Assembly: GCA_021371855.1 (NCBI GenBank)
Contig: JAJFVL010000018.1
Location: forward strand, 310,001-374,000
Source: Bacteroidales bacterium
Lineage (GTDB): Bacteria; Bacteroidota; Bacteroidia; Bacteroidales; VadinHA17
Reading direction: 5' to 3'
DNA: 64,000 nt
Shown: piece by piece, positions 1 to 4,988 of the stretch
Layout of the letters: every line of letters starts with the position of its first letter
Numbering within the stretch: position 1 is the stretch's first letter
The notes under the pieces: generated by a model
What the model saw: only the letters and a program-made list of their open reading frames with translations
Database searches by the model: none
Told to the model about the DNA's origin: nothing
Program-made: the position numbers and the translations under genes

Positions 1-1
1 A

Positions 2-304
2 GTTCGTGCAGTGGATGATTCCGATGTAATAGAAGTTACCGTCACTATTCAAAATTCCGATGGAAAAGAAGTTGAAAGCGGGGCTGCCGTTTTGAAAGAA
101 GGAAGTATTTGGTGGTGTTACCCAGCAACAGTCAACAATGAATCACTCGAAGGAGACAAAATAATTATCCATGTATCCGACATTCCGGAAACCTTACTGA
201 GCAAGAAAGGGGAATTTAATCATTTAGAAAATTTTAAAGAAAATGTGCTTTTCAATTTGAGAAGTCCATTTTTATATGACAGAGGAAGCATACAGCTACC
301 TTAA
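2..304 (+). CDS. C-terminal part of an unrecognised protein (cut by window edge)
   Basis: The frame is open from base 2, so the GTG at 11 is probably internal and the gene starts before the window. About 100 residues are visible, rich in beta-strand-like stretches (VIEVTVTIQNSDGKEVESG) with a WWCYPAT patch, and no signal or membrane segment. The alternation suggests an Ig-like or beta-sandwich end domain, but I do not recognise the family. An inverted repeat follows downstream. Confidence 0.5.
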   Translation, partial: VRAVDDSDVIEVTVTIQNSDGKEVESGAAVLKEGSIWWCYPATVNNESLEGDKIIIHVSDIPETLLSKKGEFNHLENFKENVLFNLRSPFLYDRGSIQLP

Positions 305-382
305 AGGAACCTTAGAGTCAATATACAGAACTACATTATTGTGGAAAAGCCATTGTCCTTGACCACTCCACGCCGGAGTAAA

Positions 383-477
383 TTGACCATACTTGGCCAG
401 GATTAAGTGCTTGTTGTTAAAATATTTATAATAATTGAAATTGAGCCGGCCAGATATGGTCAACTTGTCTGGCTTTT
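383..477 (+). terminator. Inverted repeat and terminator-like hairpin after the first gene
   Basis: TTGACCATACTTGGCC (383-398) is mirrored by GGCCAGATATGGTCAA (448-463) with two mismatches. A shorter hairpin GCCAGA/TCTGGC (449-454/468-473) is followed directly by TTTT. Either fold could end transcription of the upstream gene; they are mutually exclusive. The rest of 305-540 shows no gene. Confidence 0.4.
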
Positions 478-540
478 GCATCATAATTCCCAAATTTAAT
501 TAGACCTAATTTGTTTTTCAAATTATGTCCAGCTATTTAG

Positions 541-909
541 GGGGCTAAGACACTCGTAACCCTTGTCCCCTGCTCTGCAGTATCAGTAATAATACTCGGC
601 CTGGTAGGAAAATACGCAGGTATCTGGTGGGCTCTCGGTTTGTATCTATTTGCCATGATAGTATTATTTATTGCCGGAAAGATATCATCAAAGCTTCTTA
701 TGGGTAAGCCTGTTGAGCTTATTATGGCAATGCCCGACTATAAGACACCACAGTTAAAAACAGTGCTTTACCAGAACTGGGATGCACTTAAAGAATTTAT
801 TTATATTGCCTCCACTATTGTTATTGTCTCCGGTGTACTGACCCACGGCATTAACCTGGAAAGAAGGATGCCGGCTCTGTATTCATTCATATGCCTTAAA
901 AAAGTTTGA
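541..909 (+). pseudogene. feoB: feoB remnant (ferrous iron transporter, gate-domain fragment)
   Basis: The frame is open from 541, directly after an in-frame TAG. It encodes about 120 residues with VPCSA, hydrophobic helices, then MAMPDYKTPQLKTVLYQNW and an IYIASTIVIVSGV helix. This matches the second half of the FeoB membrane domain (PCSA motif, and the 'LPPYRLPTLRNVLLQVW' region). The N-terminal G domain, first gate repeat and proper C-terminus are missing, and the last 25 codons no longer resemble FeoB. The only start (TTG at 640) lies inside a helix. The 3' end overlaps the promoter of the PerR-like gene. It is a relic of an iron-uptake gene beside a peroxide regulator and ferritin. Confidence 0.7.
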
Positions 910-936
910 CTTGCACCTTTTTTTAAAGTAACTTTA
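905..936 (+). promoter_or_regulatory. Bacteroidota promoter for the perR-like gene
   Basis: The -33 box is TTTG (905-908), followed by 20 bases and then TAACTTTA (929-936), seven of eight matches to the Bacteroidota -7 consensus TAnnTTTG. The expected start near 942 falls inside the palindromic operator, so the regulator could repress itself. Confidence 0.65.
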
Positions 937-939
937 TCC

Positions 940-971
940 ATTATCAAATGATAATATCTCTCATTTGATAA
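940..971 (+). promoter_or_regulatory. Palindromic operator (Per/Fur-box-like)
   Basis: ATTATCAAATGATAAT (940-955) has perfect 6-bp arms around a 4-bp centre. A third half-site TCATTTGATAA (961-971) pairs perfectly with TTATCAAATGA (941-951). AT-rich ATTATnnnnATAAT-type sites next to a Fur-family gene are typical of autoregulation. The site lies between the promoter and the start codon at 982. Confidence 0.6.
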
Positions 972-981
972 GTAATCAATC

Positions 982-1407
982 ATGGAAAGAGAAGAAGCAA
1001 GAAACAGACCCGTTGAAAAAAAGCTTAAGGTTACACCTCAACGGATAGCTATACTGCAGGTAATAATTGACAACAAAAGCCACCCGACAGCTGAAGGCAT
1101 TTTTGATTCAGTAAGAGAAACACATCCCAATATTTCATTTGGCACGGTATATAAAGTACTTGACACACTGGCTGATAATGGCCTGATAAAAAAAGTACAG
1201 ACAGAAAAAGATATAATGAGGTATGATGGAGTAAGGGAAAGTCATCACCACCTGTATTGCACGGATTCTGACAGGATTGAGGATTACTTTGATAAAGATC
1301 TGAATGAAATTCTGAAAAGCTACTTTGAAAAGAAAAGCATTAGCAATTTTACGATAGAGGATTTTAAACTTTATATAACAGGAAAGTTCACTGAAGGTAA
1401 ACATTAG
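982..1407 (+). CDS. perR: PerR-type Fur-family peroxide-sensing repressor
   Basis: 141 residues with the Fur fold: a winged helix (VTPQRIAILQVI, then NISFGTVYKVLDTLADNGLI) and a dimerisation domain. The regulatory metal ligands of Bacillus subtilis PerR (His37, Asp85, His91, His93, Asp104) align without gaps, offset by 3, to His34, Asp82, His88, His90 and Asp101. Asp rather than Glu at the last position favours PerR over Fur. The four-Cys structural zinc site is mostly absent: Cys93 remains, position 96 is Ser, and there is no C-terminal CxxC. Catalase and ferritin downstream are classic PerR targets. The upstream promoter and palindrome suggest autorepression. Confidence 0.85.
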   Translation: MEREEARNRPVEKKLKVTPQRIAILQVIIDNKSHPTAEGIFDSVRETHPNISFGTVYKVLDTLADNGLIKKVQTEKDIMRYDGVRESHHHLYCTDSDRIEDYFDKDLNEILKSYFEKKSISNFTIEDFKLYITGKFTEGKH

Positions 1408-1411
1408 ATTA

Positions 1412-1625
1412 ATGAATCTGATAAAGGCTACATTGGTTATCTTAGGAACAATATCCCTCTCGCTGGGTGTTCTTGGAATTATTGTTCCGGGACTGCCAAC
1501 CACACCCTTTCTTTATTACAGTTTTTTCAGTCAGACTTATTGTGGTGGGGTTAGGGCTAACAGGAACACTGATAATGGGTTTAATAGTACCAACAACAGA
1601 AGATTCAGGAAACAGTAAACATTAA
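1412..1625 (+). pseudogene. Collapsed DUF454 (YbaN-like) inner-membrane protein gene
   Basis: Starting 4 bases after the perR-like stop, the first 33 codons give the conserved DUF454 start (LGTISLSLGVLGIIVPGLP, then TTPF). The frame then changes. From about 1521 another frame reads VFSVRLIVVGLGLTGTLIMG and ends at 1625, like the C-terminal helix of the family. The family is usually about 120-130 residues, so roughly 50 central residues are deleted and the halves are out of frame. The intact gene would have been a small four-helix membrane protein co-transcribed with perR and katA. Confidence 0.6.
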
Positions 1626-1629
1626 TTCT

Positions 1630-3096
1630 ATGGCAATGAAAAACAAGAAATTGACAAGCAGTTCAGGGGCTCCGGTTGCGGATAACCAGAACATTATGAC
1701 AGCCGGCAAAAGAGGTCCGGCTCTGTTACAAAGTGTATGGTTTCTTGAGAAACTGGCACATTTTGACCGTGAAGTAATCCCTGAAAGGCGCATGCACGCC
1801 AAAGGTTCAGGTGCATTTGGCACTTTTACAGTAACAAACGACATCACCAGGTATACAAGAGCTAAAATTTTCTCTGAGATAGGGAAAAAGACGGAGTGCT
1901 TTGTTCGTTTTTCTACTGTTGCAGGAGAGCGTGGTGCTGCTGATGCCGAGCGTGACATAAGAGGTTTTGCAATGAAGTTCTATACTGAAGAAGGTAACTG
2001 GGACCTGGTTGGAAACAACACACCTGTCTTCTTTTTAAGAGACCCGCTGAAATTTCCGGACCTGAACCATGCTGTGAAACGTGATCCTAAGACAAACCTG
2101 CGCAGTGCAAAAAACAACTGGGATTTCTGGACGAGTCTGCCTGAGGCGCTCCACCAGGTGACCATTACCATGAGTGACAGAGGCATACCTTCATCATATC
2201 GTCATATGCACGGTTTCGGAAGTCATACATACAGTCTTATCAATGATAAAAATGAGCGTATATGGGTGAAGTTTCATCTTGTCACACAACAGGGAATTAA
2301 AAACCTCACTGACCAGGAAGCTGAAGCAGTGATAGGTAAATGCAGGGAGAGTCACCAAAGGGATCTGTTTGACAGCATTGAGAAAGGTGATTTCCCCAGG
2401 TGGACAATGAAGATTCAGCTGATGACCGACGAACAGGCGCTGAAGTGCAGGTTTAACCCGTTTGATCTCACAAAGGTATGGTCACACAAAGAGTACCCGC
2501 TTATTGAAATAGGCGTTCTGGAATTAAATAAGAACCCTGAGAACTACTTTGCCGATGTGGAACAGGCAGCATTCAACCCTGCAAATATTGTGCCCGGCAT
2601 TGGATTTTCGCCTGACAAGATGCTGCAGGGCAGGTTGTTCTCATATGGCGATGCGCAACGTTACAGGTTAGGAGTAAACCATCACCTGATACCTGTAAAC
2701 AAATCGCGCTGCCCATTCCTGAATATGTTCCATCGTGACGGACAAATGCGTACCGACGGCAATTACGGAGCAACATTGGGGTACGAACCAAACAGCTATG
2801 GTGAATGGCAGGAGCAACCTGAATTTAAGGAACCACCCCTGCCCGTTGACGGGGCTGCTGATTACTGGAGTCACAGGGAAGATGACGATGATTACTATTC
2901 CCAGGCAGGAGACCTGTTCAGACTAATGAATAAGGCCCAGCAGAAGGTGTTGTTTGAAAACACGGCAAGAGCCATGGGCGATGCTCCCAGAGAGATTAAA
3001 ATAAGGCATATCGGCAATTGCCTGAAAGCTGATAAGGCTTATGGCGAAGGAGTGGCAGCATCATTAGGGATTAGTGTTGATGAAGTAATAAAGTGA
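1630..3096 (+). CDS. katA: Monofunctional haem catalase
   Basis: Converts hydrogen peroxide to water and oxygen. The 488-residue length fits the small-subunit (clade 3) catalases. The distal His is His56 in [16 protein letters not shown], the distal Asn is in the VGNNTPVFF motif (130-131), and the proximal haem ligand is Tyr339 in [29 protein letters not shown] precedes the Asn motif. There is no signal peptide, so it is cytoplasmic. It follows the perR-like gene and a decayed DUF454 gene on the same strand, has no own promoter that I can see, and is probably transcribed from the PerR-controlled promoter at 905. All catalytic residues are intact. Confidence 0.97.
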
Positions 3097-3213
3097 ATAA
3101 AACAGATTCCCAAATGCCTTGTTATAAAAATATCCTATGTATAATAACAGACATAAAAAGGTTCTGACGAAAACGAGATGGAATTCAATTACCCACCTTA
3201 AAAAACAATAATT

Positions 3214-3726
3214 ATGAAAATCAACAAAAAAGTAGAAGAGATACTTAACAAACAGGTAAATGCTGAATTCTGGTCAGCATACCTTTATCTTTCAATGTCA
3301 GCATGGTGTGAAAGCCAGGGGCTGAAAGGATCGGCCAACTGGATGCGTGTTCAGTTTCATGAAGAGACATCACATGCACTGAAGATCCAGGATTATGTCC
3401 TCAGCCGCTCCGGTGAGATAAAACTGCAACCGATTAATGCAGTTGAGACCTCATGGAATAACCTTCTTCATCTGTTCGAGGAGACCTACAAGCACGAGTG
3501 TGTGGTAACCGAAATGATAAACAAATGCTATGAGGTTGCTCTTTCAGAGAAGGACTATGCAACTGCAATAATGCTCCAATGGTTTATTGATGAACAGACA
3601 GAGGAAGAAAGCAATGCCCTGGAGATCATTGATCATCTGAAACTGCTCGGTGACAAAGGAGCTGGAATTTACCACCTTGACAGGAGTCTGGAAAAAAGAA
3701 AATTCACAGACGAGACAGCCGAATAA
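3214..3726 (+). CDS. ftnA: Ferritin, FtnA type
   Basis: Oxidises Fe(II) at a di-iron centre and stores it in a 24-subunit shell. Of the 170 residues, the ferroxidase ligands of E. coli FtnA (Glu17, Glu50, His53, Glu94, Gln127, Glu130) all appear, offset by one: Glu18, Glu51, His54, Glu95, Gln128, Glu131. It has no haem-ligand signature of bacterioferritin. It lies 117 bp behind catalase, with an AT-rich imperfect repeat TGTTAT...ATAACA (about 3120-3150) in between that could be a PerR-type site. Catalase plus ferritin is a standard pairing for limiting Fenton chemistry. Confidence 0.97.
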   Translation: MKINKKVEEILNKQVNAEFWSAYLYLSMSAWCESQGLKGSANWMRVQFHEETSHALKIQDYVLSRSGEIKLQPINAVETSWNNLLHLFEETYKHECVVTEMINKCYEVALSEKDYATAIMLQWFIDEQTEEESNALEIIDHLKLLGDKGAGIYHLDRSLEKRKFTDETAE

Positions 3727-3739
3727 AACAATAAATTAT

Positions 3740-3779
3740 GGTGAAAGGCAGTACCTTTATAAGGTATCTGCCTTTCACC
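3740..3779 (+). terminator. Hairpin terminator after ferritin
   Basis: GGTGAAAGGCAG (3740-3751) pairs with CTGCCTTTCACC, extended inward by TACC/GGTA with a single bulged T and a TTTATAA loop. The stem starts 13 bases after the ftnA stop. There is no strong U-tract. Confidence 0.7.
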
Positions 3780-4022
3780 CCTCTATAAAATACTGAATTC
3801 ACAATCACAGGGGTAAACATACCATTTAACATGTTGAACAGTTTTTAAGATATTAAACTACGTCAGCATGGTTATATTTTAAATTTTACGCCACCAAAAA
3901 GAGTTATCCCCTATAATACTCCCTCTTTCCTGTGCCAAATAGGATATTTTCTAAGTTACCTGCTAATTGACCCCCTATTGTGAACGGACTGTTTTTTCTT
4001 TGTAAAAAATCAGGAATATTCC
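3780..4022. other. Gene-free stretch before the palindrome
   Basis: AT-rich spacer with stop codons in all frames. I see no gene, promoter pair or repeat shared with other parts of the window. Confidence 0.5.
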
Positions 4023-4108
4023 GGACTTTTGCGTTAGGGTAATGTGCAAGTATCTATATATAGATAAACTTGCACATTGCCCTAAAGTAAAATACTGCAA
4101 ATAAGTCC
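4023..4108. repeat. Nested 86-bp imperfect palindrome
   Basis: The central arms TTAGGGTAATGTGCAAG (4034-4050) and CTTGCACATTGCCCTAA (4069-4085) match over 16 of 17 bases. Between them lies TATCTATATATAGATA, itself palindromic. Outer arms GGACTTTTGC (4023) and GCAAATAAGTCC (ending 4108) extend the fold with a 2-base offset. It ends one base before a promoter -33 box. It could be a bidirectional terminator, an operator for that promoter, or a small mobile hairpin; no second copy is in the window. Confidence 0.7.
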
Positions 4109-4140
4109 TTTGAATCATTAAAAGAAAATATGTATTTTTG
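4109..4140 (+). promoter_or_regulatory. Consensus Bacteroidota promoter with no ORF downstream
   Basis: TTTG (4109-4112), 20 bases, then TATTTTTG (4133-4140): a complete match to the TTTG/TAnnTTTG consensus with ideal spacing. The expected transcript start is near 4146. The only gene nearby in front of it is on the opposite strand, which supports a non-coding transcript. Confidence 0.65.
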
Positions 4141-4145
4141 AACCC

Positions 4146-4338
4146 AGATCATTTGCGGACATAACTGTACCGAGTGATGACAATAGTGCGTTATTTGAAA
4201 TCGTTACCAAATCATTACCTATAATGGTAATATTACACATAAAGTACTAATATTAAGCTATATGGAGAAAGTTGGTTCACTTCCCTCTTTCTCCGCAGAC
4301 CGGATTGCTCCCGCAGCTTGCTGCGGGATTTTTGTTTT
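4146..4338 (+). ncRNA. Candidate small RNA of about 190 nt (6S-like size, family unproven)
   Basis: Bounded by a consensus promoter and a Rho-independent terminator, with no credible ORF. Foldable segments are a TAGTGC/GTACTA stem (4184-4189 and 4244-4249) enclosing the hairpin ATTACC-TATAAT-GGTAAT (4214-4231), a hairpin GGAGAAAG/CTTTCTCC (4264-4271/4287-4294), and a long-range pairing TGCGGA/TCCGCA (4154-4159/4292-4297) that competes with the latter. One long stem with internal bubbles, closed near both ends, at about 190 nt would fit a 6S-type RNA, but no diagnostic sequence proves it. It could instead be a trans-acting regulator. The exact 5' end is inferred from the promoter only. Confidence 0.5.
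4310..4338 (+). terminator. Rho-independent terminator of the candidate small RNA
   Basis: CCCGCAG (4310-4316), loop CTTG, CTGCGGG (4321-4327), then ATTTTTGTTTT. This is a perfect GC-rich 7-bp stem with a U-tract, oriented on the plus strand, where no ORF precedes it. Confidence 0.8.
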
Positions 4339-4382
4339 ACAGATGTCCGAACCAGGCTTGTCTGAGTAAGGACTGATGTCTT

Positions 4383-4988
4383 TTATTTTGCCAGGCAATT
4401 TATGACATTCAAAAATTCATCCTGATTTTCTGATGTAAAGTCTTTCTCGAGCCAGGTTTCTCTTGTCCAGACACGCATTGTCTTAATCTTTTTTGATTTC
4501 AATTGATTTAATTGGTCCTTCTTCCCAAGTCTTCCATGGAAATAGACTTTTGCAGATGCTTTACAATTAAAATCACATTCGCTTAACAGTTCCATTCCTG
4601 AACCATCAGTAAAAAGTATATTTATTTTATCTCCCTTATCAATGCAGTTCCCTGCTCCAACGACATGGATAACCAGAATCAGGGAGCTTGCTGACCCTTT
4701 CATCATAAATATTCCAAATCCTGATTCTCCGCCATCGGAGGATATTATCAGTGTGTTTTTTGATATACTAATAGTCTCTCCAGTTGCTTCATCAGTTTTA
4801 GTAATAATCCAGTTATTACTGTCTTTAGGATTCAAATCAGTCTTTTTCTTCACTTTAACGTACTTCCAGGTACCGGTTGAATTTAAGATTACTTCCTTTC
4901 CATCAGATGTTGTTGCTTCCAAACTTTGTCCACACAGGCCGATCATCGTGGTCATGATCAGAAATACAGCAATGAAAATTTTCTTCAT
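4383..4988 (-). CDS. Secreted hypothetical protein
   Basis: 201 residues. An N-terminal signal peptide (MKKIFIAVFLIMTTMIGLCG) is followed by SDGKEVILNSTGTWKYV, a short motif seen at the start of many Bacteroidota exported proteins. The rest is beta-rich with cysteines (GNCIDKGDK, ECDFNCKAS, NCLAK) that may form disulphides after export. I recognise no catalytic motif or domain. It is monocistronic and convergent with the candidate small RNA, whose terminator lies 45 bp from its stop codon. Function unknown. Confidence 0.8.
   Translation of the reverse strand: MKKIFIAVFLIMTTMIGLCGQSLEATTSDGKEVILNSTGTWKYVKVKKKTDLNPKDSNNWIITKTDEATGETISISKNTLIISSDGGESGFGIFMMKGSASSLILVIHVVGAGNCIDKGDKINILFTDGSGMELLSECDFNCKASAKVYFHGRLGKKDQLNQLKSKKIKTMRVWTRETWLEKDFTSENQDEFLNVINCLAK

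Follow-up and report, generated by a model that had tools for sequence, protein, structure and literature searches.

Genomic islands that are bounded by a tRNA gene and a displaced fragment of that gene are well known (PMC4383910). In islands of the Islander type, going by the part of that source used here, a restored tRNA gene lies at one end, a displaced 3′ fragment in the same orientation lies at the other, and a tyrosine integrase is encoded between them (PMC4383910); the locus considered here has the same layout. Among the mobile elements of Bacteroides, the mobilizable NBU2 targets the 3′ end of a tRNA-Ser gene, and on the portion of the description available to us our locus resembles it in the kind of target, in having a tyrosine integrase and in belonging to Bacteroidota, the likeness being one of description (PMC5704250). 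An outward promoter at an element end is known from ICEclc, where Pcirc, as presented in the excerpts drawn on, reads over the junction once the element is circular (PMC9286271, PMC13393423). The right end described below likewise carries an outward promoter, recognized in our case by sequence only.

The window, by which we mean the whole analysed stretch of 64,000 nucleotides, corresponds to positions 310001-374000 of contig C12 (C12:310001-374000) in a 4.7-Mb genome. On its plus strand, at 4282..4296, lies a 15-nt sequence, TCCCTCTTTCTCCGC, that repeats in direct orientation the last bases of the intact tRNA-Ser(TGA) gene (C12:240944-240958) and which we regard as the attachment core. The two copies are 73,338 bp apart and no third copy is found in the stretch examined. 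In the window, the core closes a look-alike of the tRNA-Ser acceptor and T arms, GGAGAAA-17 nt-TTTCTCC-GC (4264..4296, plus strand), that is without D, anticodon and variable arms, and it is followed on the same strand (4297..4340) by the 3′ flank of tRNA-Ser(TGA) with its terminator, both displaced. The intact gene, C12:240869-240958, lies on the same strand 73.3 kb away, and its 3′ flank holds a different terminator rather than the usual one, followed by CGTTACCAAATCATTACC and then by a tyrosine integrase. The second copy of CGTTACCAAATCATTACC, an arm-type integrase site, is located at 4202..4219 of the window (plus strand); when up to one mismatch is allowed, exactly two copies exist in the 4.7-Mb genome, C12:241075-241092 and C12:314202-314219, one per end. 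An intact tRNA gene, a displaced 3′ fragment in the same orientation, an internal tyrosine integrase and, as shown below, an empty site, by which a genomic island in a tRNA gene is recognized, are all found here. It is therefore highly probable that this region is the attR of a 73.3-kb element that was inserted by a tyrosine integrase in the 3′ end of tRNA-Ser(TGA) and that bears an outward promoter. The right end itself (attR) spans 4034..4296, and positions 1..4281 are the right-hand 4.3 kb of the element.

The state of the site before insertion can be read from relatives. A search of 98 genomes, comprising 57 of the same genus together with its own and others, gave matches in 28, its own included. 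These matches cluster around window positions 4274-4340; elsewhere there are just short and weak ones of about 23-53 query bases, and the body of the unit, 4109-4264, finds nothing longer in any other of the 98 genomes, so that the conservation in relatives expected of a small RNA gene is missing. The counterpart of 4274-4340 in relatives is the 3′ end of a tRNA-Ser gene with its terminator, a tRNA-Ser being present at 18 of the 24 loci examined. In 11 genomes of the same genus, gene g6, tRNA-Ser(TGA) and the terminator seen in our window directly adjoin one another, which constitutes the empty site, and in one of the relatives (G018) genes g0-g6 are all in place beside tRNA-Ser(TGA). As gene, tRNA and terminator follow one another without interruption in relatives, it is the element that came between tRNA and terminator. 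Synteny does not extend to the right flank: in G018 the tRNA has neither g76 nor purU as a neighbour, and all three relatives with a full-length match (G001, G018 and G019) have purU elsewhere. A tRNA-Ser pseudogene that decayed through an internal deletion in place, with no element involved, would explain why GGAGAAA-17-TTTCTCC preserves the acceptor and the length of the T arm. We consider such an origin extremely unlikely, since an intact tRNA-Ser(TGA), lacking the usual terminator and with an integrase downstream of it, lies 73 kb upstream on the same strand, and since the paired arm sites disfavour it as well.

At the left end of the element, Pfam identifies the tyrosine integrase domains PF00589 and PF13102. 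The integrase region is split over two reading frames by one frame change and contains one internal stop; unless the assembly is wrong, the integrase is broken, and the element is therefore probably stuck. In this genome, then, the site is probably a relic, although its promoter may still be live. The cargo identified by Pfam includes an AbiEi/AbiEii pair, a protein with a NikR C-terminal domain, DUF3945, a group II intron reverse transcriptase and a Fur-family regulator, the last at 982-1407 of the window (FUR). As regards the comparison with the mobilizable NBU2, no relaxase was found among the 10 proteins tested against Pfam, 8 of them inside the element, out of 68 mechanical gene calls between the ends. 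Base composition does not distinguish the element (0.377, as compared with 0.375 to the left and 0.382 to the right). The Fur-family gene is followed by one at 1630-3096 that we take from its sequence to be catalase-like and by one at 3214-3726 that is presumably, by the same token, ferritin-like. The three are consecutive at the right end of the element (982-3726), and this row is possibly an oxidative-stress cargo. The group II intron reverse transcriptase, with its maturase domain, is also seen inside the element at C12:299936-301402, left of the window (L077).

The initial annotation had presented the locus as an orphan transcription unit that encodes a small RNA, possibly of the 6S type. 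Its description of the parts is accurate. An outward-facing, Bacteroidota-type promoter-like site is present on the plus strand at 4109..4140, with TTTG at 4109-4112, a 20-base spacer and TATTTTTG at 4133-4140, followed by AACCC. About 190 nt past it stands a Rho-independent terminator (4309-4333; stem at 4309-4328, then a T-run), the only one found in the stretch as against 0.5 expected, and between the two no plus-strand ORF of at least 60 aa was found. Four such promoter sites occur in the window, where 2.05 are expected, and at least 4 occurred in 16 of 100 shuffles; taken alone, the motif is not significant and lies within chance for the window. It is regarded as more than a chance occurrence because related element ends share both the motif and its distances to the palindrome and the core that are discussed below. 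A short untranslated transcript of about 190-195 nt is plausible, and for the integrated state it is predicted at 4146..4335 (plus strand), with its start placed from the promoter and its end from the terminator. What has to be given up is the view of the unit as an orphan gene, as its 3′ part is the displaced tRNA-Ser(TGA) end with the terminator and its 5′ part belongs to an integrated element, whose end it forms. A small conserved ORF 3′ of the promoter was considered as well and was rejected: by eye, an ATG is present in, for example, L110 and L158, while the start codon is missing in others, L148 and L154 among them.

The Bacteroidales-1 and 6S-Flavo RNAs are likewise flanked by a promoter and a terminator. 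Both are small RNA candidates of Bacteroidota with lengths similar to that of our unit, according to the part of the source dealing with them (RF01693 and RF01685; PMC2864571), whereas our unit matches neither model and lacks a conserved fold. The size of the unit fits a 6S RNA, and so does its stable fold (z of -4.25 including the terminator and -3.24 without it). Two mutually exclusive pairings that had been pointed out can indeed be read, TGCGGA at 4154-4159 with TCCGCA at 4292-4297, and GGAGAAAG at 4264-4271 with CTTTCTCC at 4287-4294; however, neither this switch nor the nested stems are conserved over 23 related right ends. For these 23 sequences RNAalifold yields no common fold (consensus energy 0.0), and thus the long hairpin with a central bubble that characterizes 6S RNA is not a conserved trait of them. 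Folded singly, they have a mean z of -0.96, with only 4 of the 23, the window among them, below -2; L147 was excluded from this test because the pattern had picked a wrong core in it. The covariance check against Rfam gave no match at the gathering threshold, and a relaxed scan returned no 6S family, all of its matches falling far below their gathering scores. Bacteroidales-1 RNA is absent from the whole genome in a search whose control worked; a search for 6S-Flavo gave no match, but carries no weight, its control having matched nowhere. Among the related ends, one tRNA was the only known RNA in 14 loci. With, in addition, a 3′ end that derives from a tRNA and a locus that is borne by an element and whose body is unmatched in 97 other genomes except for short stretches, we virtually discount a Bacteroidota 6S RNA at this site.

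The upstream part of the unit belongs to a recurrent module, of which 29 instances were collected in Bacteroidales. It consists of a palindrome of about 50 bp, a distance of about 52 bp, TTG/TAnnTTTGAACC and phased GNCA boxes. To obtain this set, 39 candidates were filtered by keeping those whose -7 box continues as TTTGAA, TTTGCACCT or TTTGTATCT, with L092 removed as an evident chance match and L157 added by hand. TAnnTTTGAACC is conserved and the -33 TTG is present in 26 of the 29, and the region where the transcript would start shows a conserved GAACCC...GCAGACA. In our window the palindrome is near-perfect and is a candidate operator (4034..4085, with inner GTGCAAG...CTTGCAC at 4044-4075); its spacing to the promoter is the same in related right ends. 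The GNCA boxes, which an excisionase-type protein may bind, recur in related modules at offsets 10/21/31, about one helical turn apart. The window retains two GACA boxes (4158-4161 and 4179-4182, spanning 4158..4182) at offsets 10 and 31 only, a remnant of three with the middle box missing.

In 24 of the 29 modules a tRNA-like 3′ end lies downstream, with the end of the core 138-175 nt after the -7 box; the 138 nt value is that of L147, which was retained in this count though its core was wrongly picked. The distance is 160-165 nt in 18 of the 24 and 150 nt in three, and no tRNA end was seen in the module of L141. The loose tRNA-end pattern used here has a background of 237 in 3360 random stretches of the same loci, while a stricter core pattern is found in 10 of the 29 modules as compared with 18 of 3360. 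In L110 and L105, where two elements adjoin right end to left end, as well as in our window, the promoter and TTTGAACCC come after the palindrome and are equally far from the core; this arrangement is lacking in four other ends that were read (L102, L111, L107 and L096). The neighbours on the left vary by element and, by eye and annotation, include AbiE-type, HipA-like, TetR and Crp-like genes, and the module therefore belongs to the element end and not to a particular gene. TetR was considered as the partner of the palindrome and set aside, as it stands beside it in L147 and L148 and other neighbours are found in L110, L105, L155, L157 and L150. Searches with the palindrome gave matches in 9 and 19 of 393 genomes. 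The right end of L133 matched 7 plasmid records and that of L110 none; neither IMG/VR, searched exactly with arm motif and palindrome, nor phage records, searched by blastn with right ends, yielded a match. No description of this right-end module was found in the open-licence literature searched, where the letters of the palindrome turned up in just four papers with titles on other subjects; this does not by itself make the module unpublished, and a conserved outward promoter module ahead of the displaced end is not mentioned for Islander islands in the sections of that source used here (PMC4383910).

The geometry of the module bears on whether it is transcribed at all. Among 26 distinct palindromes, TAnnTTTGAA is found on exactly one side in 21 and on both sides in none, and 20 of the 21 have it at 51-53 nt. 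Two of the other 5 have TAnnTTTG at 52 with a different next letter, and three have none at that distance; the palindrome of our own window is not among the 26 because it fails the strict palindrome pattern. The letters conserved between promoter and core are arranged as boxes, namely GNCA, then the arm sites CGTTACC or CGTACCCC, and then the core, and such box-like conservation points to a DNA-bound protein rather than to a structured RNA. The fixed geometry of palindrome, boxes and core and the phasing of the boxes could be taken to mean that the site acts as DNA only, TTG/TAnnTTTGAACC being a site bound by protein within the recombination complex, one that resembles a promoter while nothing is transcribed. 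We consider this unlikely, as both promoter hexamers are correctly spaced in 26 of the 29 modules and as the promoter stands on one side of the palindrome only. An element-borne small RNA acting in trans is distinctly unlikely: while the far-side terminator of our own element would, together with the promoter and the terminator in the window, delimit a discrete RNA of about 200-230 nt in both the integrated and the circular states, and while the start GAACCC...GCAGACA is conserved and the length to the core is nearly constant, the conservation falls on arm sites and on direct repeats that are phased, a pattern to be expected from DNA binding, and the fold results over the 23 right ends given above speak against a shared RNA structure. 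The right end might still yield an unstructured transcript. Similar palindromes were also seen in L152, L153 and L172, where no TTTGAA promoter stands at the customary distance, and that of L153 sits between integrase genes and a helix-turn-helix gene.

The opposite end of related elements is equally recognizable. When GTDB contigs were scanned for exact copies of the arm motif, 15 stretches were obtained. By eye, most of these, with records of Parabacteroides, Apibacter, Tannerella and Dysgonamonadaceae among them, contain a tRNA or the end of one, a terminator and the arm motif, in many cases together with the start of an integrase, the layout being absent from L099, L100, L108 and L112. In named relatives, the same left end is located beside tRNA-Asp, -Ser or -Arg. 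A terminator ahead of the arm motif, between core and integrase, was detected in 9 of 17 left-end loci, our own included, by an exact-stem test whose 8 misses include L099, L100, L108 and L112.

We read the right-end module as an outward-facing promoter that forms part of the recombination site and is probably regulated. RNA polymerase would start near 4146 and transcribe outward across the recombination core. In the integrated state, the untranslated RNA would end at the tRNA-Ser terminator after about 190-195 nt; once the element is excised as a circle, transcription from this promoter would cross the rejoined core into the left end and meet the element terminator within about 80 nt, and the integrase would be reached by read-through only. 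The palindrome may serve as operator and the GNCA boxes may bind an excision factor, which would place promoter and recombination site under joint control. In our element, the integrase has the right orientation for the ICEclc arrangement; in contrast to Pcirc, however, a terminator stands between junction and integrase. As this terminator is met in the circle before the integrase, a simple copy of the Pcirc model is doubtful and the idea that the circle drives the integrase is weakened. Pcirc is, moreover, described as constitutive in the excerpts drawn on (PMC9286271, PMC13393423), whereas here a palindrome precedes the promoter. Of the conceivable uses of the transcription, which range from integrase control and excision sensing to none at all, we rank recombination control and leaky integrase supply first: that integrase is supplied at a low level depending on excision, or that recombination at the right end is controlled through transcription, is a tentative reading, somewhat short of probable. 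More doubtful is the broader proposal of a noncoding right-end module widespread among integrative elements of Bacteroidota, in which operator-promoter and phased boxes serve both outward transcription over the core and assembly of the excision complex, and in which the 3′ end of the RNA, at the host tRNA terminator or at the element terminator, would tell the integrated state from the circular one.

An apparent orphan RNA is in this way turned into a precise island boundary. The signature of palindrome, 52 bp, TAnnTTTGAACC, about 160 bp and tRNA 3′ end can be used to map the right ends of tRNA-targeting Bacteroidota elements, and such units may appear as small RNAs in transcriptome surveys. 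Should the promoter be live, it would give direct access to the coupling of excision to expression in these elements.

Several minor observations concern the tRNA ends. After the tRNA-Ser terminator, a second, imperfect hairpin is found at window positions 4334-4385 (GAACCAGGCTTGTCTGAGTAAG), and it likewise occurs in several genomes of the same genus (L003, L005 and L007), where it is not confined to a single tRNA-Ser gene. Further displaced 3′ fragments of tRNA-Ser, at L019, L004/L029, L006 and L015, suggest that integration into tRNA-Ser(TGA) has happened repeatedly in this genus. One genome of the same genus carries twice, 183 nt apart, a stretch that is closed by the same terminator and has no tRNA (L010 and L030), and Parabacteroides sp. 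PFB2-10 carries several displaced tRNA-Asp ends, some of them in tandem (L122, L130, L133 and L135).
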